NCBI GenBank assembly: GCA_009691725.1 | Contig: SIAP01000009.1 | Span: forward strand, 1-64,000 | Origin: Phycisphaerales bacterium | Lineage (GTDB): Bacteria > Planctomycetota > Phycisphaerae > Phycisphaerales > SM1A02 | DNA: 64,000 bases | Reading direction: 5' to 3' | Shown: positions 1 through 15,359 of the stretch, one piece after another | Layout of the letters: each line of letters starts with the position of its first letter | Position numbering within the stretch: position 1 is the stretch's first letter | The notes under the pieces: generated by a model | Told to the model about the DNA's origin: nothing | Database searches by the model: none | What the model saw: the letters and a program-made list of their open reading frames with translations, nothing else | Made by a program: the position numbers and the translations under genes

Positions 1-31
1 TAAACGGGAGATTTCCTACATACAACTTCAT
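1..31 (-). CDS. RRM-type RNA-binding protein, N-terminal fragment
   Basis: Only the first ten codons lie in the window. They read MKLYVGNLPF, which is the start and RNP2 strand of a typical bacterial RNA-recognition-motif protein of about 80-130 residues. An AAGGAAGG Shine-Dalgarno sits on the minus strand at 38-45, six bases before the ATG at 31, which supports this start. The gene runs leftwards out of the window and is divergent from the Wsp-like operon. Such small RRM proteins bind single-stranded RNA and are often linked to cold or stress responses in cyanobacteria and planctomycetes; that role is inferred from the family. Confidence 0.65.
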   Translation of the reverse strand, partial: MKLYVGNLPF

Positions 32-170: not shown

Positions 171-2264
171 ATGTCAATGCGAGAGTCCTATATTCCATTT
201 CGAAGATCGCTCCTCGCTCGGATGTTGCTCCTGGGAGTACTGCCCGTAACGCTCCTGCTTGTGGGGCTCTTGGTCTACGAATCAAACCAGAACCTCGGTG
301 TCGTGCGATCCAGCGACGAACAGCTCATGATGGTGACCTCACAGGAGATCGGACTGGAACTGGCGGCCGGGACTGGATCCGCCCTCGATACCGCGTCATT
401 TGTGGCGAAGACTCAAGAAACTGGCATGTACGGGAAGAAACTTGAGACTCTGGCAATGCTCCACTCGCTCCTGGAAACGAACGCAAGCCTTTCTGGGACC
501 TACGTTGACTATGAGCCGAGCCTTGATCAACCAGACCCCGCGGTCACCATTCCAACGGGCGCCCTTGACCAGTCGGGTCGCTTTGCTCCCTATGTGTGGC
601 GCGACTGGACCAAGAACAACCTCGTCAGCCTGAAGCCATCAATCGATCAGGAGACGAGCCTCTGGTACGGCGGAATCAAGAAAGAGTATGAACTCACTGG
701 GGCGCGCATCGCACGAATCACGGAACCTTATGTCTATGAAGGGCAAATGATCGTGGAACAAACTTGCCCCATCGTGATTGATGGCAAGTTTGTTGGTGTC
801 GGCGGCGCGGACCGAAGTTTGAAATCCATCGACGAGCATCTGCGCACGAGTGCAGCGCGGATCAGTTCCGACGCATTCCTCATTTCGTCGGGACGCACCA
901 CGCCGGGCTTTGAAAAATTTCCGGCGTTTATCGCAGCAACGACCGACGAGATCCGTACAAATCAATCGGACACGACTGGGTTGCTTCGAACGCAGACAGT
1001 GCGCAGTAGCCCCTACGGAGAATTGTTTGCAACGCTGGGGAAGACGAAGGAAGCGACGGTGCAGTACGCGATCGACCCAGTCCTGAAAGAACGATGCGTC
1101 TACGTGACGATCCCCATCGCCGAGGGAAACTGGACACTCATCATGCGCAAGTCGGAAGTCGTGATGCTGGCGACTTTCTGGGATCAGTTCTATGCGCGGG
1201 TTGGCGGAGCTGCCGTTGGGTTGCTCGTGATCGCGGGGCTGCTGACGATTCCCGCGGTGCAGATCACTCGGCGTGTCCGTCGTTCGATGGATGTGGCGGA
1301 TCAAATCGCATCTGGCGACCTCTCGGCGACGATCGAAGTCACGCAGGGCGGCGATGAAACAGAGTCGCTGCTGCGATCACTCAAGTCAATGGCGCATGCG
1401 TTGCAATCCATCGTGCGTGGGGTCAAGCAGGCAACAGTCAACATCAATGCAACGGCGACGCAACTGGCCGCAACTGCGCGCGAACAGGATGGATCTGCGC
1501 AGTCCCTTGGCGCGAGCACCGCACAGATCGCTGCAGCCGTCAAGGAAATTTCAGCAACGGCTGATGAATTGTCGCGGCTCATGCAGGGAGTCGAGCAGGC
1601 TGCGAGTAACACCGCAGACCTTGCCCGCGATGGCAAGAGTTCGCTCCAAGAGATGACTACTGCCATGCATTCGCTCGACGAGGGGACGCATTCCATTGCT
1701 GGGCGACTCTCCACCATCAGCGAGAAAGCGAGTTCGATCAACACCATCGTGACAACGATCACAAAGGTTGCGGATCAGACCAACCTCCTCTCGGTCAATG
1801 CAGCGATCGAAGCTGAAAAGGCGGGAGAGCACGGCGTTGGATTCCTAGTGGTTGCCCGTGAGATTCGACGCCTCGCAGATCAGACTGCGGCGGCGACCCT
1901 CGACATCGAACAGACCGTGCGACACATGCAAGGTGCGGTCAGTGCTGGCGTGATGGAGATGGATCGATTCAGCGAACAAGTTCGAAAGAGTGTCGGCGAA
2001 ACGGCACGGGTCAATGGTCAACTCGGTGAGATCATCGCCCAAGTCGAATCCGGAACGCGCGATATTTTCCAAGTCACCGAGGGGATGAAGGCGCAGACCG
2101 AGGGCGCGAAGCAGATTGCAGATGCGATGTCGCAGTTGACATCGGGATCGCGCGAATCGGTCGTCGCCGCACAGGAAACCTGCCGCGCAGCGGAAGCGCT
2201 CCAAGAAGCAATCGTCGGACTTCGCCAGGGCGTTGCATCCTTCAAGACCACGGACGGGGGATGA
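171..2264 (+). CDS. wspA: Methyl-accepting chemoreceptor, WspA-like (Cache-HAMP-MCP signal)
   Basis: Membrane receptor of 697 residues, the input of the operon. A basic N-terminus is followed by a transmembrane helix (about 18-36), a periplasmic double-Cache-type sensor (about 40-335; it contains ITEPYVYEGQM and GKFVGVGGADRSL), a second helix (about 345-367), a HAMP domain (about 368-420) and a long signalling coiled coil. The hairpin tip has VADQTNLLSVNAAIEAEKAG followed by VAREIRRLADQT. This form is typical of receptors for alternative cellular functions such as WspA, not flagellar MCPs. There is no C-terminal tether pentapeptide. ATG at 171 is used; ATG at 177 is an alternative. The stop overlaps the next gene by 4 bp. 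Pseudomonas WspA has a four-helix sensor, so the Cache domain implies a different, unknown ligand. Confidence 0.88.
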   Translation: MSMRESYIPFRRSLLARMLLLGVLPVTLLLVGLLVYESNQNLGVVRSSDEQLMMVTSQEIGLELAAGTGSALDTASFVAKTQETGMYGKKLETLAMLHSLLETNASLSGTYVDYEPSLDQPDPAVTIPTGALDQSGRFAPYVWRDWTKNNLVSLKPSIDQETSLWYGGIKKEYELTGARIARITEPYVYEGQMIVEQTCPIVIDGKFVGVGGADRSLKSIDEHLRTSAARISSDAFLISSGRTTPGFEKFPAFIAATTDEIRTNQSDTTGLLRTQTVRSSPYGELFATLGKTKEATVQYAIDPVLKERCVYVTIPIAEGNWTLIMRKSEVVMLATFWDQFYARVGGAAVGLLVIAGLLTIPAVQITRRVRRSMDVADQIASGDLSATIEVTQGGDETESLLRSLKSMAHALQSIVRGVKQATVNINATATQLAATAREQDGSAQSLGASTAQIAAAVKEISATADELSRLMQGVEQAASNTADLARDGKSSLQEMTTAMHSLDEGTHSIAGRLSTISEKASSINTIVTTITKVADQTNLLSVNAAIEAEKAGEHGVGFLVVAREIRRLADQTAAATLDIEQTVRHMQGAVSAGVMEMDRFSEQVRKSVGETARVNGQLGEIIAQVESGTRDIFQVTEGMKAQTEGAKQIADAMSQLTSGSRESVVAAQETCRAAEALQEAIVGLRQGVASFKTTDGG

Positions 2265-2737
2265 CCAACGCCACCATGCGTGTTGTGGAAATCTGGCTTG
2301 GCACTCACCGGTTCGGTATCCAGATCGCAGGAATCGACGAAGTATTGCCGCTGGTCGAGTGTCGGTCGTTGCCTGGAGCTCCCCAGTGGATCATCGGCAT
2401 GGCTCAATTGCGCGGTGCATTCGTCCCGCTGATCGACTGCGGAGCCGTCTTGAATCACACTCCTGTCGAACGCACCATGAATGCGCGCATCGTGTTGCTA
2501 CAGGCTGGGGCGGTCGGTGGGAGTATGCGTCTGGCTTTGCTTGTGGATGGCGTCGGCGCGATCGTGACAGTCAATCCCACGACGGACGGAGCTCATCCTG
2601 GAATTGCCGGGACGGGTCGCGGAGCGTTGGGCGCGATCACCAACGATGACAAGGGCGAAATCTGCCTGATCGACCTCGCACGACTACTGAATGATCAAGA
2701 CCGCCAACTCTTCCGAGATGCGGGCACATCGCCGTGA
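2261..2737 (+). CDS. wspB: CheW-like coupling protein (WspB-like)
   Basis: A 158-residue single CheW domain, the normal length for a scaffold protein joining receptor tips to the CheA kinase in the cytoplasm. Visible features are the opening strands (VVEIWLGTHRFGIQIAGIDE), the conserved IIGMAQLRGAFVPLIDCG segment, and a late strand with GEICLIDLARLL. It starts within the stop of the receptor gene (ATGA) and ends in a GTGA overlap with the methyltransferase gene, so translation is coupled on both sides. It takes the WspB position in the wsp gene order. The assignment as CheW is secure; WspB orthology rests on synteny. Confidence 0.85.
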   Translation: MTNATMRVVEIWLGTHRFGIQIAGIDEVLPLVECRSLPGAPQWIIGMAQLRGAFVPLIDCGAVLNHTPVERTMNARIVLLQAGAVGGSMRLALLVDGVGAIVTVNPTTDGAHPGIAGTGRGALGAITNDDKGEICLIDLARLLNDQDRQLFRDAGTSP

Positions 2738-4026
2738 GTGACGCGAGTCGGCAGTCGGACATCGCCGCAATTGGCCAACTTCTTGCACGACGGGCCTCCT
2801 TGATGCCCGCGCTCCTCGAAGGACCTGGATTCGCCAGCGCAGTCCGCTTGCGAATGAGCGTGCTCGGCATCGTCGATACATCCCATTACGCGCAGCTCGT
2901 CATGGACGACGAGCGCGAACTGCGCTGCATTGCCAGCGAAATCGCAGTGCCAGAAACATGGTTCTTTCGATACAGCGCGAGTTTTGAATTCCTCTTGCAG
3001 TGGCTTCGAGATCGGCGAACGCGCAAGGGTGGGTCACTGATGTGTGCCAGCCTCGGTTGCGCGACTGGCGTGGAAGCGTGGAGCATCGCAGCATGCGCAC
3101 TTGCGAGTGGTTACAGCGCGCACTCCATCGTTGTCCACGGACTCGATCGCAATCCGACGGCGATTGAGGGTGCGCTCGTCGGAACTCTGGGACGAGGAAG
3201 CCTGCGGGGCGATCTTCCCGCGTGGGCTGCTCCTTGGATCACATCCGCGGGGTCGACTGTTGAACTGTCTGACGAGGTTCGCTCATGCGTGCGCTTTCGC
3301 ACTGCAGATGTGCTGGTCGACAACGATTTCTTTGACTCGCCGATCGATGTGATGTTTTGTCGCAATGTCGTGATCTACCTCGATCCCGTTGCTCGGATCG
3401 TGCTTCGGGATCGAGCGGCGCAGTGGCTCGCAAGCGACGGAGTGCTCTTCTTGGGGCATGCCGATGCTCTCGAGCGTGCCGATCTGTTCGAGACCGTTGG
3501 CGCCCCAGCTGCGTTCGCTGTGCAACACAAGCGCACGAGCCAGGCAAAGGTTGCGAGGGTTGCGACACGGACTCCGATCGCGCCCACCGCCGCCGTGCGA
3601 CCTTCGCGTGTGCCTCCGACTGAAAAGACGACTGGAAAGACGACTGGAAGCCCAAAGGGGATTCCAGTCTCGGGTCGAATTGCCTTTGCCCCATCCACAC
3701 CGACAATATCGACTGTGGATCGCACTCCGCTCCGCACTCAGATCAGCGCACTCATTCGGGTCAGCAAGCTCACTGAAGCTCGAAAGTGCGTGGAGATGTT
3801 GTTATCCCAAACGCCCGCTGACATCGAGTGGCTCGAAACGCTGGCGGGAATCCTGTGTGCCGAGAATTCCCTCGTCCGCGCTCATCAGACATATCTTCGA
3901 GTCGTCTATCTTGACCCACGTCACGGATCGGCATTGCTCGCGCTCGCCGAATTGTCTGCGGCACTCGGACGATTGGACGAGGCGGAACGATTCCACGGTC
4001 GATTGAAACGATTACATGATGGTTGA
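2734..4026 (+). CDS. wspC: CheR-type receptor methyltransferase with C-terminal TPR (WspC-like)
   Basis: SAM-dependent glutamate methyltransferase that adapts the receptor. The 430-residue protein starts with GTG at 2734 inside the previous stop. The N-terminal CheR helical domain holds VPETWFFRYSASFEFL. The Rossmann domain has LGCATGVEAWSIA (SAM loop; usually GCATGEE) and the diagnostic FCRNVVIYLDP. A Pro/Thr/Lys-rich linker (about residues 265-320) leads to TPR-like helices at the C-terminus (about 330-430; DPRHGSALLALAELSAALGR). A CheR with a TPR tail is characteristic of WspC and FrzF-type proteins. It sits between the two CheW genes exactly as wspC does. Confidence 0.87.
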   Translation: MSDASRQSDIAAIGQLLARRASLMPALLEGPGFASAVRLRMSVLGIVDTSHYAQLVMDDERELRCIASEIAVPETWFFRYSASFEFLLQWLRDRRTRKGGSLMCASLGCATGVEAWSIAACALASGYSAHSIVVHGLDRNPTAIEGALVGTLGRGSLRGDLPAWAAPWITSAGSTVELSDEVRSCVRFRTADVLVDNDFFDSPIDVMFCRNVVIYLDPVARIVLRDRAAQWLASDGVLFLGHADALERADLFETVGAPAAFAVQHKRTSQAKVARVATRTPIAPTAAVRPSRVPPTEKTTGKTTGSPKGIPVSGRIAFAPSTPTISTVDRTPLRTQISALIRVSKLTEARKCVEMLLSQTPADIEWLETLAGILCAENSLVRAHQTYLRVVYLDPRHGSALLALAELSAALGRLDEAERFHGRLKRLHDG

Positions 4027-4038
4027 CGAAGTGTGCCA

Positions 4039-4620
4039 ATGAGTTCATCGCAGCCTCCATCTTCGCCGGCTCATCACGACGCGATTTCTCGACTCCTGAA
4101 TCGACCCGTGAACAGCGCGACCGTCGCGCAGTCCACGAAGGAGAGCGCGCAACCGCGGAATCTGCGTCGCGAGCAACTCAACAATTTGCTGGTGGTTCGT
4201 TGCGCAGCGGAATGGTTTGCGATTCCAGCGGAGTGTGTCGTCCATGTCTCGCGAGTCTCGAAGGTGCACATGGTTCCCCATCGCTCTGCCCTGGGATTTC
4301 GTGGCGTGACTCCCCTCTCTGGTGCTGTGATCCCAGTTGTTGATCTCACTGCATTACTCGGGCTGACCCAACCGAATCAGGCACTTCCGCGCAACGCCCG
4401 AATGGTGACGGTCGGAACAGCGCAGGCACCGTGGGCCTTCGAGGCCGATGAAGTTCCGGGTGTGTATGCGCTCCCTCAGTCTGCCATCAAGCCACTGCCG
4501 ATGGTCGTCGAAGCCGCACCGAGGCGTGTCTCTTCTGGCCTCGTGCATACCCCACATGGAATGGCCTCGGTCATCGATCCCCAGCGACTCTTCGCGATGT
4601 TCGCACGGGTGCTGGAGTAA
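4039..4620 (+). CDS. wspD: CheW-like coupling protein (WspD-like)
   Basis: Second coupling protein of the cluster, about 193 residues. A polar N-terminal extension of about 45 residues precedes the CheW domain (NNLLVVRCAAEWFAIPAE, then GFRGVTPLSGAVIPVVDLTALLG). Two scaffold proteins of different length, one long and one short, are a hallmark of wsp operons (WspB and WspD). An in-frame GTG at 4033 is another possible start; the ATG at 4039 is preferred because a GAAG purine stretch lies seven bases upstream. Only three bases separate its stop from the kinase gene, so the two are almost certainly co-translated. Confidence 0.83.
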   Translation: MSSSQPPSSPAHHDAISRLLNRPVNSATVAQSTKESAQPRNLRREQLNNLLVVRCAAEWFAIPAECVVHVSRVSKVHMVPHRSALGFRGVTPLSGAVIPVVDLTALLGLTQPNQALPRNARMVTVGTAQAPWAFEADEVPGVYALPQSAIKPLPMVVEAAPRRVSSGLVHTPHGMASVIDPQRLFAMFARVLE

Positions 4621-4623
4621 TCG

Positions 4624-6912
4624 ATGGACCTCGGCGGCTTCTCAATGTTCGACCTCTTCCGCACAGAAGTGCAGCAGCATTGTGCGGCGCTCGCTGATGG
4701 GCTCGTCGCGCTCGAACAACGCGCGAGTGATCCCAAGATGGTTGAGCCGTTGATGCGTGCGGCACACTCGATCAAGGGAGCTGCGCGGATCATCAATCTC
4801 GATGGCGCAGTGCAGTTGGCACATGCGATGGAAGAATGCCTCGTGCGCATTCAGCGCGCCACCGAAGTGCCAGTTCCATCTCGCATTGACGACCTGCTCA
4901 AAGGAAGCGATGTCCTTCTCTCGCTTGCGGATCGCACGAGCGAGGCAGATGCCCGAGCGTGGCTCGAGAAGGAAGCAACCCAGATTGCTGCACTCTCCGA
5001 ATCACTGAACTCTCCTCCACGAGCGGGGCTGGGGAGTTCTGCCGGCGCAAGACCAGTCGCTCCGACACCCGCTGAACAGTTGGCTGAACAGTCGGTTGGG
5101 CATGCAGTTGGGCAGACAGCAACGATGGCGTCAGCGCTGGCAACTCCACCGACATCCCCTGTCGCATCGCTTCCATCGACTGCAGCGAGCCCATCAATTG
5201 GATCGGGAGTGCTCGTCGCTGCGTCGAGTCTCGAACGACTCTTGCAGTTGTCGGGCGAGTCGCTCGTCGAGGCGCGGCGGCTGGAGTCCATTCGGAAGAC
5301 GCTCACGCGTGCGAAGCGTGCTCAACGGACTCTTGCAGACGCGCTGGATTCGTTGGAGGTCAGCGGTCCGCGGGCTGGCGATGCAATGGATGCCGTCGCG
5401 CTGAGTCACCACGCCCTCGATGAGGCGCTCACGCAAGTTGAAGATCACCTGCGACGCGGAGAAGAACTCGCGAGCGCCCTGCACAACGAAGCGGTGGCGA
5501 GTCGGATGAGGCCATTCGGTGATGCGTGCGGAGGGTTTTCACGATCAGTTCGAGATGTGGCGCGCGCACTTGGCAAAGAAGTCAAGTTGGTGATCTCTGG
5601 CGAGCAGGTCCCGGTCGATCGAGAGATTCTGCGTCAGCTCGAGGCGCCGCTGGGGCACCTCGTCCGAAACGCAATCGATCATGGCATCGAGTCGCCAGCA
5701 GATCGCGTTGCTTCGGGGAAGCCTTCGCAGGCCACACTGTCGGTCGAAGCGCGCCATCACGCAGGAAGTTTGTTGGTGGAAGTGCGCGAGGATGGACGCG
5801 GCATCAACCGCGAAGGCTTGCGCGGACGAATCGTTGCGAAGAACCTGTCGACCGCGGAACTTGCTGCAACGATGGATGATGCGGAGCTCTTCGACTTCCT
5901 GTTCCTGCCTGGATTCTCGACCGCGGCACACGTCACGGACATTTCCGGGCGGGGCGTGGGGCTTGATGTCGTGCGGTCGATGGCGCACGCCGTTGGAGGC
6001 AGCGTCGAAGTACGTTCGAGCCCACGCGGCACATCGTTCGTGTTGCGTCTGCCCGTCACTCTGTCGGTCGTACGCGCCGCCGTCGTGTCGATCGCTGGAG
6101 AGACCTATGCGCTTGCGCTCGCGCGATTGGACCGCATCGATCGGATTGCGCGCACGGAAGTCACGACGATTGAGGGACGGCCGACTGCAGTCATCAAGGG
6201 CGATACGGTTGGTCTGGTGCACGCCTGGGAATTGCTCGAATTGAAAACTCCCCAGAATGCCCCGCACAGTGAAGATCTTGCGATTGTCAGTCTCCACGGT
6301 GGCGGACGATCCGTCGGGCTCATCGTCGACTCGTTTCTTGGTGAGGAAGACTTGGTGATCCGTCGACTCGACGCACGCCTTGGGCAGGTCCCCCATGTCG
6401 ATTCTGCGAGCATTCGCGAAAATGGTGACTTGCTCTTGGTACTCGATGCTGACGACCTGGTGCAATCGACAGTGCAACTGTTGGAACGCGGGCAACTGCG
6501 TGGTGACAGTCGGCGGTCAAGTGCGAGTGGGCGAGCACAGAAGCGCATTCTTGTCGTCGAGGATTCAATCACGGTGCGCGAGGTCGAGCGGCAAATGCTG
6601 CTGCGAGCCGGATACCTCGTCGACACGGCCGTCGACGGAGTCGATGGGTGGAACGCCTTGCAGAAGACACACTACGACTTGATCGTGAGCGATGTCGACA
6701 TGCCGCGCATGAACGGGATCGAGCTGGTGAGCAAGATTCGCGGCGACCGACGCTTTGAAGCAATCCCGGTGGTGATCGTGAGCTACAAGGATCGAGAGGA
6801 AGATCGGCTCGCGGGAATGGATGCCGGTGCGTCGGCATACCTCACCAAAGGATCGTTTCAAGATCAGTCGTTTCTGCGAACAATTGCCGACCTCGTGGGA
6901 TCGGCACCCTGA
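4624..6912 (+). CDS. wspE: Hybrid CheA histidine kinase with C-terminal receiver (WspE-like)
   Basis: Signal-transducing kinase of 762 residues. An Hpt domain with the phosphorylatable His48 (RAAHSIKGAARI) is followed by an Ala/Pro/Thr-rich linker (about 120-195) and a dimerisation helix pair. The ATPase has an N-box (LGHLVRNAIDHGIE), a G1 box (EDGRGI) and a G2 box (DISGRGVGLDVV). A CheW-like regulatory domain follows (about 480-625). The C-terminal receiver (from about residue 640) has ED at its start, the likely phospho-acceptor near 690 (DLIVSDVDMP) and a Lys in YLTKG. The CheA-REC fusion is the WspE/FrzE architecture and is absent from standard flagellar CheA. Its stop and the next start share one base (TGATG). 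It should phosphorylate both the CheB-like protein and the terminal REC-PP2C protein. Confidence 0.9.
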   Translation: MDLGGFSMFDLFRTEVQQHCAALADGLVALEQRASDPKMVEPLMRAAHSIKGAARIINLDGAVQLAHAMEECLVRIQRATEVPVPSRIDDLLKGSDVLLSLADRTSEADARAWLEKEATQIAALSESLNSPPRAGLGSSAGARPVAPTPAEQLAEQSVGHAVGQTATMASALATPPTSPVASLPSTAASPSIGSGVLVAASSLERLLQLSGESLVEARRLESIRKTLTRAKRAQRTLADALDSLEVSGPRAGDAMDAVALSHHALDEALTQVEDHLRRGEELASALHNEAVASRMRPFGDACGGFSRSVRDVARALGKEVKLVISGEQVPVDREILRQLEAPLGHLVRNAIDHGIESPADRVASGKPSQATLSVEARHHAGSLLVEVREDGRGINREGLRGRIVAKNLSTAELAATMDDAELFDFLFLPGFSTAAHVTDISGRGVGLDVVRSMAHAVGGSVEVRSSPRGTSFVLRLPVTLSVVRAAVVSIAGETYALALARLDRIDRIARTEVTTIEGRPTAVIKGDTVGLVHAWELLELKTPQNAPHSEDLAIVSLHGGGRSVGLIVDSFLGEEDLVIRRLDARLGQVPHVDSASIRENGDLLLVLDADDLVQSTVQLLERGQLRGDSRRSSASGRAQKRILVVEDSITVREVERQMLLRAGYLVDTAVDGVDGWNALQKTHYDLIVSDVDMPRMNGIELVSKIRGDRRFEAIPVVIVSYKDREEDRLAGMDAGASAYLTKGSFQDQSFLRTIADLVGSAP

Positions 6913-7946
6913 TGCGCATCGCCATCGTCAACGACTTGCGAATCGCACAAGAAGTCCTTCGCCGAGCCGTGGCTGCGATGCCCGGTGCATCGGTTGCATG
7001 GACGGCGCTCGATGGGCACGAAGCGCTGCTCGCGTGCAAGCGCGACACGCCTGATTTGATCTTGATGGACATGGTCATGCCCCTGATGGATGGCGCACTT
7101 GCGACGCGCGCGATCATGAAGGAGTGCCCCTGCCCAATCTTGGTTGTGACGAGCACGATCGAAGGCAATCTCTCGCTTGTGTACGAAGCGCTCAGTGCTG
7201 GTGCCATCGACGCAGTTCACACCCCGCAGCTCGCCTCCGATGGTTCCGTGACTGGCGTCGACGCACTCATCCGAAAGTCGCGCGTCGCACTCGCCGCCGT
7301 TGCGGGAACATATTCGGGACACGGCGAGTCTGTGGCACGAGTTCCCGCGCAGCCGCTTCCACACGCTCCTCACTCGAATCGGCTCGCCATGGTTGCCATC
7401 GGATCATCGACGGGTGGACCGCACGCACTCTCTGTGGTGCTTCGTGAGTTGCAGGGACACGCGTCCATCTGCACGGTCATCGTTCAACACATCGACATCA
7501 GTTATTCGTCGGGGCTTGCCAACTGGCTCACCCGCGAGATCAAGCGACCTGTACGGATCGCCATCGACGGCGAGCGACTCACTGTTGGCGAAACGCTGGT
7601 CGCAGCAACCGACGATCATCTCGTGATCATGGCAGGATGTGTGCGCTATGTGCGAGAGCCCGTCGCGCAGATCTACAGACCGAGTGTCGATGCGTTCTTT
7701 CACAGCGTTGCGGTTGATCGATCATTGCACGGCGCAGCGGTGCTGCTCACGGGGATGGGGCGCGATGGCGCAGATGGGCTGCGAGCGCTTCGTGCCTCGG
7801 GGTGGCACACCATCGCGCAAGATCGAGCGACCAGCGTCGTATGGGGAATGCCAGGCGCTGCTGTCGAACTTGGAGCTGCTGCAGAAGTCCTGCCGCTCGA
7901 AAGCATCGGCGCACATGCGAGTCGCAGAGTTGTGGGTCATTCGTAA
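6912..7946 (+). CDS. wspF: CheB-type receptor methylesterase (WspF-like)
   Basis: Adaptation enzyme of 344 residues that removes methyl groups from the receptor. The receiver domain begins MRIAIVNDLRIAQEVLRRAV, which resembles WspF more than flagellar CheB, and has its phospho-acceptor at Asp53 (LILMDMVMP). After a linker, the esterase domain shows the catalytic Ser in AIGSSTGGP (about 165), His at about 193 (VQHIDISYSSG) and Asp in LTGMGRDGADG. In Pseudomonas, loss of WspF locks the Wsp pathway on, so this gene is the expected negative feedback arm. It is followed after 14 bp by the output gene. Confidence 0.9.
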   Translation: MRIAIVNDLRIAQEVLRRAVAAMPGASVAWTALDGHEALLACKRDTPDLILMDMVMPLMDGALATRAIMKECPCPILVVTSTIEGNLSLVYEALSAGAIDAVHTPQLASDGSVTGVDALIRKSRVALAAVAGTYSGHGESVARVPAQPLPHAPHSNRLAMVAIGSSTGGPHALSVVLRELQGHASICTVIVQHIDISYSSGLANWLTREIKRPVRIAIDGERLTVGETLVAATDDHLVIMAGCVRYVREPVAQIYRPSVDAFFHSVAVDRSLHGAAVLLTGMGRDGADGLRALRASGWHTIAQDRATSVVWGMPGAAVELGAAAEVLPLESIGAHASRRVVGHS

Positions 7947-7960
7947 CATCGAACGACATC

Positions 7961-9136
7961 ATGTCACTCTCCGCTCACTCTGATTCTGCCTCGCTGAGTC
8001 GCGTCGTCGTTCTCCTGGTCGACGATCAACCGATGATCGGCGAAGCCGTCCGAAGAATCTGCGCCACGCAACCCGGTATCGAGTTTCACTTCTGCTCGGA
8101 TTCGACAAAAGCAGTTGAAACTGCGGTGCGTCTTGAGCCAACAGTCATCTTGCAAGATCTTGTGATGCCGGAGATTGACGGGCTCGATCTTGTGCTGCAT
8201 TACCGCACACACGAGGCCACCAGACTCGTCCCATTGATTGTGCTCTCTTCCAAAGAGGAGCCCGCCACCAAGGCCGAGGCATTCGCGCGCGGCGCCAATG
8301 ACTACCTCGTGAAGCTGCCTGATCCCATCGAGATCATCGCACGCATTCGATATCACTCGCGCGGATACCGCGCGCTGCTTGAGCGAAACGAGGCCTTTCG
8401 CCAACTCAAAAGCGAACTCGACCAAGCGGGCGACTATGTGCAGTCGCTGCTGCCATCGACGTTGACGGCACCAGACCTCACGGTCCGCGGCGCCTTTATT
8501 CCAAGCGCGCAATTGGGTGGAGATTTTTTTGGATGGCGCGAACTCTCCTCCGATCACCTCGCGATTTTCTTGATCGATGTCTGCGGACACGGTGTGGGTC
8601 CGGCTTTGCTGTCAGTCTCCGTGAGTAATGCCTTGCATGCCAGCGGGATCTCTGCCGATGATCTCTTGAGGCCAGGAGAGGTGATGACTCGGCTCAATGC
8701 CGCATTCCCGATGACGCATCATCGCGGGATGTATTTCACAGGCTGGTATGGAGTGCTGCATCGACCCACGCGAACAATGGTGTGGGCTGGTGCGGGTCAT
8801 CCTCCTGTGATGGTCACGCGCGCCAATGGGGACTACCTCGAACTCGATTCACTCGGTGCGCCGGTGGGCATCATTGAAGGCAATGACTACGAAGAGTCCT
8901 CCGTGCAACTTGAGAGCGGCGATCGACTCTTCTTGTACAGCGATGGAATTGTCGAGATCGAATTGCCAGATGGGACGGTCTGGGGGCACAGTGACTTTCA
9001 ACTCTTCGCTCGATCGGATGCGTTGAAGGCGGCAGATCCAATTGCACGAATGCTCGAATTCACGCGAGGAATGCAAGGGTGCGAGCAGTACGCAGATGAT
9101 GTTTCGATTGTGGAACTCACACTGCCGTTTCGTTGA
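7961..9136 (+). CDS. Response regulator: WspR-type receiver fused to PP2C/SpoIIE phosphatase
   Basis: Output protein of the operon, 391 residues. Residues 13-130 are a receiver with DD at 21-22, phospho-acceptor Asp66 (VILQDLVMP) and Lys118 in GANDYLVKLPD. Stretches such as VDDQPMIGEAVRR and IRYHSR are near-identical to Pseudomonas WspR as I recall it. A coiled linker (about 135-165) joins it to a PP2C/SpoIIE domain with metal ligands in GGDFF (Asp188), IDVCGHGVG (Asp206), YSDGI and YADDVS, and the family motif AGAGHPP. WspR instead has GGDEF here. The expected activity is dephosphorylation of Ser/Thr on a partner, perhaps an anti-sigma-antagonist as for RsbU; no such partner gene is nearby. 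The ATG at 7961 is chosen because the reading frame upstream overlaps the previous gene and is not protein-like. Confidence 0.9.
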   Translation: MSLSAHSDSASLSRVVVLLVDDQPMIGEAVRRICATQPGIEFHFCSDSTKAVETAVRLEPTVILQDLVMPEIDGLDLVLHYRTHEATRLVPLIVLSSKEEPATKAEAFARGANDYLVKLPDPIEIIARIRYHSRGYRALLERNEAFRQLKSELDQAGDYVQSLLPSTLTAPDLTVRGAFIPSAQLGGDFFGWRELSSDHLAIFLIDVCGHGVGPALLSVSVSNALHASGISADDLLRPGEVMTRLNAAFPMTHHRGMYFTGWYGVLHRPTRTMVWAGAGHPPVMVTRANGDYLELDSLGAPVGIIEGNDYEESSVQLESGDRLFLYSDGIVEIELPDGTVWGHSDFQLFARSDALKAADPIARMLEFTRGMQGCEQYADDVSIVELTLPFR

Positions 9137-9166: not shown

Positions 9167-10249
9167 ATGGCGCGGCGACCAGATCCCAATCAGTCTCTGC
9201 TCTTTGGTGATGGATCCGATGATCCAGCATCGCCCTCATCCACCACAGCGACGGCGTCGTCGACGACGCCCGCGATGTTTGATCAGACGCTCCATGCGGT
9301 CGCTCGGGGACTCTCGCAGCGCGTACGACTCGGCACGAGTTCGTGGAGTTTTCCAGGGTGGCGCGGCATCATCTGGGAGGGTGCCACGACGACGGCGGCG
9401 CTCGCGAAGGATGGGCTCCGTGTCTACGCGCAGCATCCACTCCTCCGCACCGTGGGCGTCGACAAGACGTATTACCGCCCCGCGCCTGCGGAGGAGTTCG
9501 CACGACTCCGTGCGCAGGTCACCGATGATTTTCGGTTTCTCGTGAAGGCGCATGAGTCGCTCATGCGGCGCGAGACCGCGGCGACTTCCGAGCGAGGTCC
9601 TGCACACTTCCTCGACGCCGCGTTTGCGCAGGATCAGGTGATCGAGCCAATCACGGAAGGACTCGGTGTTTCTGCGGGACCAATCCTCTTTCAATTCTCG
9701 CCGATGGGACTTCGAACCGCAGCGCATGCCGAAGCATTCATACGAAAACTTGGCGCGTTCCTTGGGGCACTCCCGCAGGGTCCGCTCTACACAATCGAGG
9801 TTCGCGATCGCGTGCTCCTGCGTCCGTCGTGGCCAGCCATGCTGCACGATCATGGAGCGACTCACTGTTTTTCAGTCCATCCCGCCATGCCAACCCCCGC
9901 AATCCAGGGGCGCACCGTGGATCCAGCGACGCAACGCGCGATCGTGAGTCGATGGATGTTGCACAGTGGGCTCGCCTATGCGACTGCGGTTGATCGATAC
10001 CACCCATTCGACAAGATCGTCGATCCAGATCCCGCGAGCCGAGAACAGTTCGCACAACTCTGCGCACTCGCCATCGCACAGGGCAAGGACGCGTGGGTGA
10101 TCATCAACAACAAGGCAGAGGGATGTGCGCCGAGATCCGTTGAGCGACTCGCTCGTGCGATCGCTGACGCAGCAGATGGCGCGGATGGCGCAGTCTCGGC
10201 CCAACCACCCATCGAAGATCATCGACCTCACCAAGATCATCACCCTTGA
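9167..10249 (+). CDS. DUF72 (YecE-like) TIM-barrel protein
   Basis: A 360-residue member of the DUF72/YecE family, recognised by the opening RLGTSSWSFPGWRGIIWEG, by YYRPAPAEEFARLRAQV and FRFLVKAHESL in the middle, and by the C-terminal AWVIINNKAEGCAPRSVERL. The first 45 residues are a variable, Ser/Thr-rich extension. The fold is a TIM barrel; biochemical function is unknown for the family. It starts 30 bp after the chemosensory operon on the same strand, but nothing links it functionally. Its 3' end overlaps the convergent unknown gene by 10 bp. Confidence 0.85.
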   Translation: MARRPDPNQSLLFGDGSDDPASPSSTTATASSTTPAMFDQTLHAVARGLSQRVRLGTSSWSFPGWRGIIWEGATTTAALAKDGLRVYAQHPLLRTVGVDKTYYRPAPAEEFARLRAQVTDDFRFLVKAHESLMRRETAATSERGPAHFLDAAFAQDQVIEPITEGLGVSAGPILFQFSPMGLRTAAHAEAFIRKLGAFLGALPQGPLYTIEVRDRVLLRPSWPAMLHDHGATHCFSVHPAMPTPAIQGRTVDPATQRAIVSRWMLHSGLAYATAVDRYHPFDKIVDPDPASREQFAQLCALAIAQGKDAWVIINNKAEGCAPRSVERLARAIADAADGADGAVSAQPPIEDHRPHQDHHP

Positions 10250-11277
10250 GGGGGAGCGGGCAGCGCGTCAGGCGCGAGTCTCTCTCCTCGCACTCGTGCC
10301 GCATCGCAGAGCGCATTGCGCTGGGCGCGACCGCGATCCAACTCTCCACGAACTCCCAGAAAGTCCGGGCGTGCTGCGCTCGCCCATGCTCCAAACTCCC
10401 CCGCCTCTGCGCGTGTGACCAACAGAGCAAGCTGCGCAGTGGCATCGGTGGCACGCCACGCAATGGCGGCTGCGGCGAAGAAGGTCTCCGCCGCCCGCAT
10501 CTCAACCAACAATTCCTCGCCACTGAGCCTCGAAAGCGGATACTCGTTGGACTTGGTCACGATTCCCGCTGGCTCGCTCAATGCCGACAGATAGAGCGAT
10601 GCGCCATTCGCACCCAGTCGAATGCGCTCCTGTGGACGGGTGATCCACCGTGTGTGCTCTGTCTGCACGCAACGAGCGATCGACGCATCCTCGACGGTGG
10701 CGTACGCCATCGCAGCATCGCGAATGCGGAGTGCGGCGTGTTGATCGCAATTCTGGAGGAACGCGTCAGCTCGTTGAATCGCTTGCCATCCCATTCGTGA
10801 GGCTTCCCGTTGCGTGTCGAGCCTTGGCACTTGCGCAAGGATGCGTGCGATGTGAAACATTGCGACGATGCGTTCACATGCTTCGTCGCGTCGACTGAAT
10901 CTCTCCAGTCGTCGGCTATCGGCGTCCAAGAGTGACATCCAATCGCTGAACTCCTTGGAAGGCGGAGCACTGGCGTACCAGTCCATCGACCATTCGCACG
11001 CATGGCTCAATGCGATGCACAGCGAAGCAATCTCGACCTTCGCGCTCTCCAATTCCATGATCGCACTTTCACTTGGCATCCATCGGCGAGAGCGGAAGTA
11101 CTCGCGCATCGTGCGGGGACAGCGCGCAGGAAGATCCACCGCAACCGCTGCGAGGCACTCGGGACTTCCGATGGCGCGTGCGGATGGCGGCGACACGGGG
11201 GTGGGTGCGACCTGCTGCGGTGACTGAAGTGTCATCACTCCAACGAGTTCCGCCACGATGATGAGAGATGCCACCAT
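10240..11277 (-). CDS. Unknown protein with N-terminal membrane helix
   Basis: I do not recognise this protein. From the ATG at 11277 it has 345 residues: a hydrophobic segment (MVASLIIVAELVGVM) that could be a signal anchor, a Pro-rich stretch, then a mostly helical domain with many Arg, Glu and Ala and scattered Cys. The frame continues upstream to 11370 with another possible start, giving a basic pre-sequence and a longer helix, but that would run antisense into the thioesterase gene. Start choice is therefore uncertain. It is head-to-head with the thioesterase, with almost no promoter space, and overlaps the DUF72 gene tail-to-tail by 10 bp. Confidence 0.6.
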   Translation of the reverse strand: MVASLIIVAELVGVMTLQSPQQVAPTPVSPPSARAIGSPECLAAVAVDLPARCPRTMREYFRSRRWMPSESAIMELESAKVEIASLCIALSHACEWSMDWYASAPPSKEFSDWMSLLDADSRRLERFSRRDEACERIVAMFHIARILAQVPRLDTQREASRMGWQAIQRADAFLQNCDQHAALRIRDAAMAYATVEDASIARCVQTEHTRWITRPQERIRLGANGASLYLSALSEPAGIVTKSNEYPLSRLSGEELLVEMRAAETFFAAAAIAWRATDATAQLALLVTRAEAGEFGAWASAARPDFLGVRGELDRGRAQRNALCDAARVRGERLAPDALPAPPQG

Positions 11278-11284
11278 CACGGCA

Positions 11285-11731
11285 ATGCTAATCGTTGCCA
11301 CTGGATATGCTGATCGCTTGCTCAATAGTGAACAGCATCGCGAGTTTGGAACGCTCCGTTTGGGGCGCACCGATGCTGCGGGAGTTCTCTACTTCGCACG
11401 CGCGCTTGAGATCTGCCATGAGGCAATCGAGAGTTTCTTGGACTCCAGAAAAATCGACATTGCGCTGCTCATGAAGGATGGGCCGCTCCTCCCCGTCGTG
11501 CATGTCGAAGCGGACTTTCGATCACCACTCGCTGTGGGAGATGGCTACTGCACCATCATCGAGTCGGTGGAGTGTTCTGCCCGCTCTGTGAAATTCGCGT
11601 TGCGGTTGATGTCGAAGGACGGACGGACGATCGTCACCGCGCACATCGTCCACGCCTGTATCCATGCCACGGAGGGCGGGAGCATGGAAATCCCGGCGAG
11701 TCTGCGAAAGGCACTCACACCGGCAACGTAA
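11285..11731 (+). CDS. Hotdog-fold thioesterase, likely 1,4-dihydroxy-2-naphthoyl-CoA hydrolase
   Basis: A 148-residue 4-hydroxybenzoyl-CoA thioesterase-family protein. The segment GRTDAAGVLYFARALEICHE carries the catalytic Asp and resembles cyanobacterial DHNA-CoA hydrolases. DHNA-CoA hydrolysis is the step between MenB and MenA, and this gene lies directly against the menaquinone operon: its 3' end overlaps menC tail-to-tail by 17 bp. Start is uncertain: in-frame ATGs at 11258 and 11261 would overlap the divergent gene, so the ATG at 11285 was chosen. The fold assignment is strong; substrate specificity is inferred from the neighbourhood and motif. Confidence 0.78.
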   Translation: MLIVATGYADRLLNSEQHREFGTLRLGRTDAAGVLYFARALEICHEAIESFLDSRKIDIALLMKDGPLLPVVHVEADFRSPLAVGDGYCTIIESVECSARSVKFALRLMSKDGRTIVTAHIVHACIHATEGGSMEIPASLRKALTPAT

Positions 11732-12728
11732 ATTGGGCGGCGGGGACAAACTGAAGTGATGGCACGGGCAGGGCAGGCGCGATTGCCATGCGGCCACCAC
11801 GAATGGGTGCGGGGGGAACGACATCGGACACGAAGAGGTTGGCAGTTCCAAGTCCGTGGTCGCGGTCTGCAACCCCAAGCGCACTTGCCATGCGCGCGAC
11901 GAGCGCAATGGTGTATGACGAGTCGATCGCAGTAGAGAGCACAGTTTCCGTCCCATGAATGCGACCCTGCGTGACCACGGACTCGACCGCCTCAAGCGAG
12001 CCGATCAAGGAGGGCTTCAGAATCTGCACTTCGATGCCAGGTGCGCCGAGGACTTCATCAATGGGCAATCCAATGTGCAGACTCTCATCGACTGCCATGA
12101 CGAGATTCACTCTGCGCGAGAGTTCGCTGAGGTCGGAGTGATCCTTGAGCGGCTCCTCGATGTATTCGATGCGTGATCCGTCAAGGCGACTCAGCAATCG
12201 TTCGGCGGTGACCAGCGTCATCCTGCGATTCCCATCGAGTCGAATCTGCACAGATTCATCGACCAGATTCAGAATGGTCGTCACGGTGCGCAAGTCGTCG
12301 ACTGCCTTCCCTCGCCCAATCTTGATCTTGATTGTTCGAAAGCCATCAAACTCGCCTGCAGTGAAGGCGGCCTTTGCCTCCCGCGCAGATCCAGAAAAGA
12401 ATGCGTTCACACCGATGTCGCTCGCGGGAGCGGGATCCGCAAATCCGTACCGCGCAGTTCCTGCTGCCGTTTCAATCGCACAGGACAAACCAAACGCGGC
12501 ACTCGGCAGGAGCGGTGTGGACTTGTTGCGGATCGCCTCTTGGAGGCTCTGCAACGCATCGACCAGTGTCTCGCGATGGAATCCTTGGAGCGGCGCGACT
12601 TCGCCGAATCCATATCGCTTCCCCGTCTGGCACCGCACCATCACTCCGCGTCGCACGGAGATACTTTCTCCGCCGATGTGATAGGGCTTGCGAAATGGCA
12701 GTTCAAAGTAGGCAAGATCCATTTTCAT
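11715..12728 (-). CDS. menC: o-Succinylbenzoate synthase
   Basis: Enolase-superfamily enzyme of 337 residues that dehydrates SHCHC to o-succinylbenzoate in menaquinone synthesis. Visible active-site elements are the KxK pair (TIKIKIGRGK), the metal ligands in RLDGNRR, YIEEPLKD and AVDESLH, and the Lys in ILKPSLIGS. The C-terminal region (STAIDSSYTIALVARMASAL) is typical of MenC. The ATG at 12728 gives a 4-bp ATGA overlap with menA; a start at 12737 is less likely. It is the last gene of the men operon and its end overlaps the thioesterase gene from the other strand. Confidence 0.88.
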   Translation of the reverse strand: MKMDLAYFELPFRKPYHIGGESISVRRGVMVRCQTGKRYGFGEVAPLQGFHRETLVDALQSLQEAIRNKSTPLLPSAAFGLSCAIETAAGTARYGFADPAPASDIGVNAFFSGSAREAKAAFTAGEFDGFRTIKIKIGRGKAVDDLRTVTTILNLVDESVQIRLDGNRRMTLVTAERLLSRLDGSRIEYIEEPLKDHSDLSELSRRVNLVMAVDESLHIGLPIDEVLGAPGIEVQILKPSLIGSLEAVESVVTQGRIHGTETVLSTAIDSSYTIALVARMASALGVADRDHGLGTANLFVSDVVPPAPIRGGRMAIAPALPVPSLQFVPAAQFTLPV

Positions 12729-13627
12729 ATCAGCCATCCGATTGAGAACAGAACACCGTACACGAGAATGGCTCGCCCAGTTGCAGCGAGCTCACGGTTC
12801 AGTGCGCGTCCGCTGGTCCCGTCAAGCATGCGTGACATTGATGGGATGAGCGCGATGCCTGCGACGCCAGCGCTCGCACTCCACCACCTCCCAGATGATG
12901 CAGCCATCACGATGGCGATCGCGATTGCTGCGATCACACATGCGCAGTAGCAACGGCGCCCCCATGCGCCGCCACATCGCACCGCGAGTGTGCGTTTGCG
13001 GGCGATGCGGTCCGTCGACTCGTCGCGAACATTGTTGACGCCGATGAGTGCGCTCGCAAGAAATCCGATGCCAAGCCCTGCGAATGCCGGCAGCATTGAC
13101 CACGATCCAGTCTGCGCAGCGACCGTGCCTGCGACTGCGACGGGACCGAAGAAGAGCAGCGCGAAGAGGTCGCCCAGCCCGAGGTACGCGAGAGACCACC
13201 GACTGCCGGTGTATGCGAACGCGAGGACCACACACAGCGCACCGAGCGCGGAAAATGTCCACCCCGCGTGCATGGAGAGATACACCACACATGGCGTGAC
13301 GACTATCAAGAGCACACAGATTGTGGCGATCATCATGGCGCGTGCCCCGATTCGTCCCGAGGACACTGCGCGGACTGGACCGAATCGTTGAGGCGTGTCC
13401 GCACCCTGGCGCGCATCGAAGAAATCATTTGCGAAGTTGCATGCCACCTGGATGCCGAGCGCACCGGTCAGTGCGGCGATGGCACCACCAAGATGAAATG
13501 CGCCGCTTCCCTGCGCAATCGCAGACCCCATCGCCACCGGAGCGATGCTCGCAGTCAGCGTCCGAGGTCGCATCGCTGATATCCACACCCAGAAGATTTC
13601 ATCCTGTGTCGTATCGACTGTGGTCAC
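12725..13627 (-). CDS. menA: 1,4-Dihydroxy-2-naphthoate polyprenyltransferase
   Basis: Integral membrane UbiA-superfamily prenyltransferase of 300 residues that attaches the isoprenoid chain to DHNA, giving demethylmenaquinone. The first Asp-rich motif is [18 protein letters not shown] followed by GPVRAVSSG; the second is in [19 protein letters not shown]. About eight or nine hydrophobic helices can be seen. The start is GTG at 13627, inside the menB stop (GTGA). It sits fifth in the men operon, with menC coupled to its own stop. Confidence 0.9.
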
Positions 13628-14481
13628 GGGTGTCGAGTGAAGCTGCTGAAATCCGGGGGACGCTTCTCCAAGTATGCCTGATGGCCCTCCTGGCCCTCCT
13701 CGCTCATGTAATACAAAAGTGTCGCATTTCCTGCCAATTCCTGGAGTCCTGTCTGCCCATCACAGTCTGCGTTCAACGCTGCTTTGAGGCATCGGATCGC
13801 CAATGGCGACTTTGCGAGAATCTCCCGCGCCCACTGCACAGTCTCTGCTTCGAGCTGCGCCAATGGCACAACGCGATTAATCAATCCCATCTCAAGTGCC
13901 GCGGTGGCGTCATATTGACGGCACAGAAACCAGATCTCGCGAGCCTTCTTCTGGCCCACAATGCGCGCCATGTAGGAGGCGCCGAATCCGCCATCGAACG
14001 ATCCAACCTTTGGACCCGTCTGCCCAAAGATCGCATTGTCGGCGGCAATCGTGAGATCGCACACCATGTGCAGGACATGCCCACCGCCGATGGCATACCC
14101 CGCCACCATTGCAATGACTGGCTTTGGAGAAGTTCGGATGTCCCGTTGCAGATCGAGGACATTCAGGCTCTGCGTCCCGTCACCGTCGGCATAGCCAGCC
14201 TCGTGACGAACCCGCATGTCACCCCCCGAACAGAACGCGAGGGTTCCTTCGCCCGTCAGGATCACCACTCCAATCTGCGGATCGAATCGCGCCGCACGAA
14301 GTGCTGATCGCATCGACTCGACAGTTTGTGGTCGAAACGCATTGCGAACCTCGGGACGACAGATGGTGATCTTGGCGATTCCCTCCGCTGTCTCGTAGCG
14401 AATGTCCGGATACGCACCAGCCATCGTCCATGCGATGGGTTTCATTTCAGCGGGGATTGCGGTGTTTTTCTCTGTTGTCAT
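13624..14481 (-). CDS. menB: 1,4-Dihydroxy-2-naphthoyl-CoA synthase
   Basis: Crotonase-superfamily ring-closing enzyme of 285 residues. Oxyanion-hole regions are [15 protein letters not shown] and [16 protein letters not shown]; the MenB signature [15 protein letters not shown] is complete, as is the C-terminal RPPDFSSF. It converts o-succinylbenzoyl-CoA, so it needs MenE, which is not in this window. The ATG at 14481 gives a 4-bp overlap with menH; an ATG at 14502 also exists. MenA is coupled downstream. Confidence 0.93.
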
Positions 14482-15359
14482 GGAGTTCCTGTCGTTGAGC
14501 ATTCTCGCACTCGAAGCACCTCGAACGCAAGCGCTGTGGGCTGCTCGATCGCAACAGCGTGATCAGCGCAGCGGACGCGCAGCGTACGAATTCCTCGTCT
14601 GTGCGCACGGTCGGCAATGGCGAGATACTTGGCGTCTGCCTCTCCAACCACGAGAGTGCACATGTCAGCGTTGTCGCAGAGCAGATCCCACCGCGAGATG
14701 GAGCGTCCTGGCGAAGCGTCGCTGACCATGGATGCCCACACCAACGCAGAATCGCCGCGAGCCAAGTCGACTGTGCGGCGGTCCGCGAACGATTGATAGT
14801 TCTCCGTCGCACGAAGCATCGCAAACATCGCCGTCGAATACCACCCGTCGATGAATGCCGCTGCCATCCTGGTTCGTGTTGCGGCGTCGGCATCTGCAAT
14901 CGCCACGAGCTGGCGTGCACGATCCTCATCGCACGCGACACGCGACTCGCGCAGTGATGTCTCTTCGATTCCAGGATCGGCACTCACGAGGATGCATCGC
15001 ATCGGTCCGCGACCTGGATCGATTTCGCCTCGCCGCTGAGCGAGCAATTCCAACGCAATGCGACCTCCCATCGAGTACCCGATCACATCGAATCCGGCGT
15101 TGGTGCGCGGATCCTCTGCGAGTTGTCGCGAGATCTCCCTCGCAAGTTCGCTCAGTCCGCATCGGCGTTCGTTCTGTAATCCCCGCGCAACGGTTCGGGC
15201 AATCTCACAGAGGTCCACGACGATGCAATGTGGTCTGTTTCGGCGACTCTCCACTTCGAGCGCAGCGCGCAAGGGCTGCCAATCGTCTGGCGATCCGAGG
15301 AATCCATGAATGAGGACCAGCGGTCGATGGGAGTGACGATCGTCGTGGTGATCGCTCAT
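14478..15359 (-). CDS. menH: Alpha/beta hydrolase, SHCHC synthase
   Basis: A 293-residue alpha/beta-hydrolase between menD and menB. It opens with [18 protein letters not shown], which is MenH-like, has the nucleophile Ser in [13 protein letters not shown], and a plausible catalytic His in [11 protein letters not shown] near the end. It would eliminate pyruvate from the MenD product SEPHCHC. The ATG at 15359 is chosen because it overlaps the menD stop by 4 bp; an upstream ATG at 15386 would overlap menD by 31 bp. Length is slightly above the usual 250-270 residues. Confidence 0.82.

Follow-up and report, generated by a model that had tools for sequence, protein, structure and literature searches.

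Wsp serves as a model system in work on surface sensing and on the evolution of biofilms. In its accessible part, PMC8552884 describes 794 Wsp clusters, each of which has WspR or WspH as output, and gives them as exclusive to beta- and gammaproteobacteria. Wsp labels were also given in Planctomycetes in 2019, with no remark on the output domain in the available text (PMC6461901), and Wsp genes of Planctomycetes are mentioned in PMC9119077. Here, the chemosensory operon at positions 171–9136 of contig SIAP01000009.1 (assembly GCA_009691725.1, Phycisphaerales bacterium) was compared with the described systems. The window, that is the whole stretch of DNA analysed, comprises positions 1 to 64,000 of this contig, and the draft genome has 2.07 Mb and is 92.6% complete. 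The operon is a real and well conserved feature. Judged on its sequence, we give a probability of about 0.7 to the reading that it forms a complete chemosensory system of the non-motility kind and belongs to a widespread Wsp-related branch, with a Ser/Thr phosphatase output that probably works by STAS partner switching.

We know of no Wsp-order operon to which PP2C proteins of the RsbU, RssB or SiaA type are tied, and we take the domain order of CrsR from Shewanella to be REC-PP2C-kinase (REC, receiver). The former resemble the last protein of this operon in the PP2C fold and in the helical-linker control proposed for them in the available text of PMC12143880, and differ from it in their receivers or sensors. 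Shewanella Che1 with CrsR/CrsA (accessible text of PMC9855816) is likewise a chemosensory operon, encoding a partner-switch regulator and an anti-sigma antagonist acting on RpoS, and differs in its own Che gene set including CheD and CheY. The first-pass annotation of the window knew of no characterised example in this form and allowed for described relatives; Ser/Thr phosphatase 2C had been tabulated in 2012 among the outputs of CheR-TPR clusters (PMC3447774). That survey sorts outputs by domain and, in its accessible text, does not mention a WspR receiver on PP2C, a stalk rule or a link to RsbW. In the searchable text of the openly licensed PMC literature no other paper was recognised for a Wsp-order cluster with PP2C output.

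Gene order and receptor of the operon

The operon is compact, with all seven genes on the plus strand and intergenic gaps of −4, −4, +6, +3, −1 and +14 bases. Every open reading frame (ORF) was confirmed, and in a Pfam scan the core domains of all seven proteins exceeded the cut-off; in the CheR-TPR protein TPR_19 was marginally below it (24.7 bits, cut-off 25). The order receptor, CheW, CheR/TPR, CheW, CheA/REC, CheB and REC claimed in the first-pass annotation was thus confirmed by ORFs and Pfam, the last protein being REC-PP2C. The features of the operon are as follows.

171..2264, plus strand: chemoreceptor in the WspA position, with PDC sensor, HAMP and MCP signalling domain (ORF, Pfam)
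2261..2737, plus strand: CheW in the WspB position (ORF, Pfam)
2734..4026, plus strand: CheR methyltransferase with C-terminal TPR in the WspC position (ORF, Pfam; TPR_19 just below the cut-off)
4033..4620, plus strand: CheW in the WspD position (ORF, Pfam)
4624..6912, plus strand: hybrid CheA (Hpt, HATPase, CheW, REC) in the WspE position (ORF, Pfam; Azoarcus homologue)
6912..7946, plus strand: CheB methylesterase with receiver in the WspF position (ORF, Pfam; Azoarcus homologue)
7961..9136, plus strand: response regulator with WspR-type receiver, helical stalk and SpoIIE/PP2C domain (Pfam, PDB matches, alignment, predicted model)
8009..8350, plus strand: WspR-type receiver domain with phospho-acceptor Asp66 and Lys118 (Pfam, PDB matches, alignment)
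8324..8446, plus strand: continuous stalk helix, residues 122–162, one heptad below most relatives (predicted model, length counts)
8549..9121, plus strand: SpoIIE-type PP2C domain with metal-binding acids (Pfam, alignment, fold matches)

An annotated wsp-type cluster of Azoarcus, with a diguanylate cyclase as its last gene, has the same gene order. Identity to this cluster was 48% for the cytoplasmic part of the MCP, 34% for CheW, 27% for CheR, 24% for the second CheW, 42% for CheA, 50% for CheB, in agreement with the WspF-like CheB of the first-pass annotation, and 60% for the receiver. Against six plasmid Wsp clusters, used here instead of the queries of PMC8552884, whose accessible text sets a Wsp criterion of ≥30% identity, the values were 40–44% for CheA, 44–50% for CheB, 41–48% for the MCP, 22–34% for the first CheW, 27–32% for CheR and 23–27% for the second CheW.

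By the definition in the available part of PMC8552884, the wspA–wspF synteny and a WspR-type receiver are both present, and the output is REC-SpoIIE in place of WspR or WspH; because the output was compared and differs, the operon lies outside Wsp as defined in print. It shares with the Wsp systems of Pseudomonas and Betaproteobacteria, in which WspR carries GGDEF, the gene order, the hybrid CheA, the CheR-TPR protein, the WspF-like CheB and the WspR-type receiver with its stalk; unlike them it has PP2C for GGDEF, a PDC sensor for a four-helix bundle (4HB), and low identity in CheR and the second CheW, and the tree test below did not join it to them. The WspH system of Burkholderia (WspHRR) is alike in joining a Wsp core to a WspR-type receiver fused to a non-GGDEF output, and differs in that this output is a histidine kinase (HK), according to the accessible text of PMC8552884; the Burkholderia cenocepacia cluster of this type used here (L111) lacks GGDEF.

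The operon also has the features of the alternative cellular function (ACF) class as given in the accessible text of PMC3447774, namely a CheR-TPR protein (here with TPR just below threshold), a multidomain response regulator and no flagellar tie. The receptor is the sole MCP match of the draft genome, the only three CheW domains of the draft genome are all encoded by the operon, and a search of it for FlhA gave no match.

The PDC sensor was above the Pfam cut-off in the window receptor and in that of its kin L030. It was just below the cut-off in L036, and in L039 none was found by Pfam; other relatives carried a sub-threshold dCache_1 (L046, Singulisphaera acidiphila), a Cache_3-Cache_2 (L083) and a Tll0287-like sensor (L071). 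In three Wsp receptors that were scanned, the sensor was the four-helix bundle 4HB_MCP_1. Since the input domains have diverged, surface sensing is not transferable to this operon, and its attribution in the first-pass annotation found no support.

Receiver, stalk and phosphatase of the response regulator

The receiver of the terminal protein gave its best PDB matches with WspR (3bre, 185 bits; 3i5a, 178 bits). The third match of the regulator was RssB (3eq2, 93 bits, spanning both domains), and the others among the best 60 of 138 matches reached 60 bits at most. Among 72,556 plasmid records, identity to the window receiver was 58–63% for the 20 best matches and about 35% for the next among the best 40 of 997 matching records. 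Five of these 20 loci were inspected (L110, L112, L113, L114, L115), and in all five the terminal gene encoded REC-GGDEF; in the sixth cluster, that of B. cenocepacia, the receiver was 52% identical and lacked GGDEF, as in the WspH type of the available text of PMC8552884. The closeness of the final receiver to WspR, at about 60% identity, was therefore upheld, and a grouping with generic RsbU/HsbR regulators, which the first-pass annotation had named as the outcome against it, was not observed, the PDB and plasmid matches pointing to WspR. Exactly one WspR-type receiver (E ≤1e-20) was found in each of eight genomes with the PP2C form that were checked, 150 of 192 candidates having been scored in one of them (G397).

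In agreement with an RsbU-type phosphatase, the output is a SpoIIE-family PP2C domain with all metal-binding acids kept, as had been claimed. Residues Asp188, Asp206, Asp328, Asp379 and Asp380 of PP2C, as well as Asp21, Asp22, Asp66 and Lys118 of the receiver, were invariant across 50 aligned homologues (L068, whose stretch ran into a stop codon, was excluded). The AlphaFold2 model of the regulator (mean predicted local distance difference test score 89.9, predicted template modelling score 0.70) has an unbroken helix at residues 122–162 connecting both domains, and a Foldseek search with it matched RssB, WspR, SiaA, Rv1364c and SpoIIE.

Stalk length was counted from the conserved Lys-x-Pro of the receiver to where the PP2C domain starts, or to the GGDEF start motif. 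From 160 WspR-type regulators found, removal of identical or short receivers left 108 with PP2C (window included), 36 with GGDEF and a sequence, and 8 with cyclase; the PP2C anchor was placed in its strict form in 98 of the 108, and in a looser form, searched from position 43 on, in the other 10. The PP2C stalk measured 54 (n = 91) or 47 (n = 17) in all 108 distinct regulators, the GGDEF stalk 52 (n = 30), 38 (n = 5) or 59 (n = 1) in all 36, and the cyclase stalk 42 in 8/8, so that differences within each output type were multiples of 7. Mapped on the CheA+CheB tree, the short PP2C stalk, which includes that of the window, needs four changes. The available text of PMC8041772 gives a 7-residue length rule and a register-shift mechanism for Rec-GGDEF proteins, among them WspR; coiled-coil or helical-linker control by an exchangeable coiled-coil toolkit was proposed for PPM phosphatases in PMC12143880, where a word search of the accessible main text found neither "heptad" nor "linker length". 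Three GGDEF clusters (L235, L236, L239) carry a tandem REC-GGDEF pair in which the stalk of one partner is two heptads shorter.

Relatives and the history of the output domain

A search with the response regulator, from which the best 80 of 279 loci were kept, gave full or partial Wsp-order PP2C clusters in Planctomycetota, Thermodesulfobacteriota, Pseudomonadota (Methylococcaceae), Kiritimatiellota, Lentisphaerota, Acidobacteriota and Chlamydiota, and in Omnitrophota, the eighth phylum by genome name, a variant cluster without CheB and CheR matches; these names come mostly from metagenome bins and may be wrong. Because this set is biased to PP2C, a second sampling was made by CheB alone, in which five candidates were scored per genome and the cluster counts are lower bounds. 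In Planctomycetota, where all 17 non-own places at E ≤1e-70 were examined and the split matches of G162 were left out, at least 17 Wsp-like clusters were found besides that of the window, 16 with REC-PP2C and one (L178) with a REC-HisKA-HATPase-REC output by Pfam. The phylum of L071 contained at least 23 clusters, 15 with PP2C, seven with GGDEF and one (L245) cut off right after CheB; an extra REC-cyclase was present in three of its 14 newly added PP2C clusters. Pseudomonadota had at least 28, comprising 22 with GGDEF, one with HK, one with PP2C and four (L240–L243; L240 and L242 on short contigs) without a WspR-type receiver in view. Such a receiver was likewise not in view in L183, which lies inside the family in the tree. 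A search for Wsp synteny with the output recorded, as suggested in the first-pass annotation, thus did give PP2C, but within a broad family of which the window is a typical planctomycete member.

Clusters of Wsp order with GGDEF were found beyond the range given in PMC8552884, on two alphaproteobacterial plasmids (L112, L115; Novosphingobium, Mesorhizobium) and in the seven genomes in the phylum of L071. The accessible part of the same paper reports no genome carrying both H- and R-systems. Genome G723 has a WspH-type cluster (L224) and, elsewhere, a CheB adjoining a REC-GGDEF WspR-type regulator (L227, with CheA not in view), and the B. cenocepacia plasmid record has a second WspR-type receiver distant from its WspH cluster. 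Tandem WspR-type regulators with a class III (adenylate/guanylate) cyclase and with PP2C were seen at nine loci (L066, L077, L098, L104, L105, L106, L254, L255, L264), two of them with the cyclase domain confirmed by Pfam; L098 and L264 seem to come from a single genome. With such a pair, one CheA may drive two outputs.

Trees of CheA+CheB with 89 and 102 rows were rooted on planctomycete ACF clusters; for the latter, 19 listed rows were removed and then those without long CheA and CheB matches. In both, the GGDEF/HK clusters were nested in PP2C clusters, with Shimodaira–Hasegawa-like approximate likelihood ratio support of 90–96 (89 rows) and 86–94 (102 rows), and the deepest forks were ordered differently. 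Two WspH-type clusters fell among the GGDEF Wsp clusters in the 102-row tree. Approximately unbiased (AU) tests were performed on a 48-row CheA+CheB subset of our choice with the simpler LG+G4 model.

These results bear on the first-pass proposal of a surface-sensing Wsp system whose WspR lost GGDEF to PP2C in this lineage. The same gene order and the 58–63% receiver identity to WspR are in agreement with such a replacement, but a tree uniting only the window clade with the GGDEF/HK Wsp clusters was rejected (p-AU 0.00112), whereas the joining of eight planctomycete PP2C clusters to GGDEF/HK was not (p-AU 0.131), which argues that no recent GGDEF-to-PP2C swap took place; moreover, PP2C output occurs in many lineages and the sensor domain differs. 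A much older swap, well before this lineage and in either direction, would be compatible with the AU tests. The receiver trees asked for with WspR bore out a separation in part: with 92 rows the REC-PP2C receivers stood apart from those of WspR, on few columns and with poor outgroups that lay on saturated branches, one of them inside the PP2C receivers, whereas with 157 rows PP2C and GGDEF receivers were not cleanly split, each label needing four changes, two of them forced by starred branches. Taken together, replacement in this lineage is very improbable, and the claim was not retained.

A single clade was not rejected for all PP2C clusters (cost 2.95 log units, p-AU 0.45), for GGDEF/HK (p-AU 0.509) or for 14 planctomycete PP2C clusters (p-AU 0.474). 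In view of the first of these values and of the different deepest forks, PP2C ancestry was dropped as an established result. It may tentatively be proposed, at somewhat less than even odds, that PP2C is the earlier and more widely spread output of this family and that the c-di-GMP Wsp system derives from it, having exchanged PP2C for GGDEF while keeping receiver and stalk, with GGDEF later giving way to a histidine kinase in Burkholderia and a tandem cyclase being added in other bacteria.

Probable partner switching, flanking genes and meaning

The system is Wsp-like on its input side and most likely RsbU-like partner switching on its output side. The genome contains five SpoIIE, seven STAS and two HATPase_c_2 matches above the cut-off (four of the last at E 0.01), with RsbW and STAS adjacent on contigs C31 and C48 (Pfam support for both genes on C48 and for RsbW on C31). 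A single protein with the domains PDC-HAMP-SpoIIE is encoded on contig C32 (L020:2602–4614); its sensor type matches that of the operon receptor, and it is perhaps a direct route into the same partner switch.

The sole GGDEF match of the genome is a REC-GGDEF protein on contig C43, which could in principle be the true output, with the PP2C protein as a side branch. Its receiver scored about 38–60 bits against REC-PP2C regulators, compared with 152–185 bits for true WspR receivers against that of the window, and it adjoins an Hpt protein, which suggests a phosphorelay of its own. We therefore consider this arrangement extremely improbable; the separate GGDEF WspR named in the first-pass annotation as a possible true partner was not observed.

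RsbW and/or STAS were in view, with Pfam check, at six of 86 REC-PP2C loci showing CheA or CheB (L071, L074, L076, L080, L108, L175; L076 and L080 being close kin), at two of the 23 REC-PP2C loci where neither CheA nor CheB was seen, and at none of 36 GGDEF/HK loci. In L071, from Desulfoferrobacter suflitae, both RsbW and STAS lie next to the operon. Adjacency as a statistical proof was dropped, 6/86 against 0/36 being weak. The best HATPase_c_2 match per genome was also compared in 52 genomes of our choice. Strong RsbW homologues (E ≤3.2e-21) were present in 38/38 che-linked REC-PP2C genomes and in 0/11 genomes with GGDEF output (best 3.5e-11), these being seven from the phylum of L071 and four Pseudomonadota; within the phylum of L071 the contrast was 15/15 for PP2C against 0/7 for GGDEF.

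Several points weigh against partner switching as the output. Neither a STAS nor an RsbW gene was seen within the operon itself, and as the candidates of the genome are unlinked to it, the choice of substrate is a guess among seven STAS proteins. The adjacency contrast is weakened further by near-copies among the 86 loci (for example, L049/L248, L057/L171 and L098/L264 are identical in the tree columns) and by differing stretch lengths. Strong RsbW was also present in 3/3 relatives without a CheB match at E 1e-30, all 52 genomes passed the loose HATPase_c_2 family cut-off, and the E-value gap was chosen post hoc. Lineage also confounds this RsbW contrast, and the GGDEF genomes tested from Pseudomonadota numbered only four. 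Finally, RssB is the closest full-length fold, and it is called a pseudo-phosphatase adaptor in the accessible text of PMC12143880.

The PP2C domain might accordingly act on other substrates, such as targets of Hanks-type kinases, or be an RssB-like adaptor without any STAS partner switch. The operon without a STAS gene and the RssB fold would suit this, as would the 21 of 23 REC-PP2C genes without CheA/CheB that are also without RsbW/STAS in view, some of them on short contigs; however, the catalytic acids are invariant in the 50 homologues, the domain is of the SpoIIE family, SiaA, Rv1364c and SpoIIE are among the PP2C fold matches, and strong RsbW is found in all 38 che-linked genomes. We regard this alternative as unlikely. 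Partner switching, put forward with a "perhaps" at first pass, was retained as the likely target; RsbW/STAS pairs are present in the genome and unlinked to the operon.

With partner switching as the preferred output, the periplasmic PDC domain would sense a ligand or condition and set CheA activity. CheA would phosphorylate Asp66 of the regulator and the CheB receiver, with CheR and CheB providing adaptation. Phosphorylation of Asp66 may change the register of a dimeric coiled-coil stalk and so switch PP2C, which would dephosphorylate one or more STAS anti-anti-sigma proteins, the candidates on C31 and C48 each adjoining RsbW. In its dephosphorylated state, STAS would sequester RsbW, and a sigma factor or another target would thereby be released.

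The first base of the window is also that of its contig (C50), and two features precede the operon.

1..31, minus strand: start of a divergent gene truncated at the contig end, reading MKLYVGNLPF, with the same frame upstream in L032, L033, L036 and L037
32..170, no strand: divergent intergenic region 5′ of the operon, partly conserved among relatives

The divergent gene presumably encodes a protein resembling RRM RNA-binding proteins. As it lies directly upstream of the operon, with a partly conserved intergenic stretch, in four relatives, the 5′ part of the operon seems to be intact. The contigs of the window and of L030, another species, end at the same site in the first codons of this gene, and the suggested cause is a repeated gene at which assembly stopped. 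Immediately 3′ of the operon, a DUF72 gene lies on the same strand (9167–10249, Pfam). At 11258–14502, a 4HBT_2 thioesterase gene (plus strand) is followed by MenC-like enolase, UbiA prenyltransferase and enoyl-CoA hydratase/MenB-like genes (minus strand; Pfam), a group with a probable role in menaquinone.

In many lineages a Ser/Thr phosphatase is joined to the Wsp-type core and receiver, so that the planctomycete "WspR" labels, as they appear in the available text of PMC6461901 and PMC9119077, need a check of the output domain before a diguanylate cyclase is called. That one receiver–stalk unit is combined with outputs as different as GGDEF, PP2C, cyclase and kinase, its length varying in 7-residue steps, provides a natural example of the toolkit proposed in the accessible text of PMC12143880, and makes it testable by domain comparison how one phospho-switch drives unrelated enzymes.

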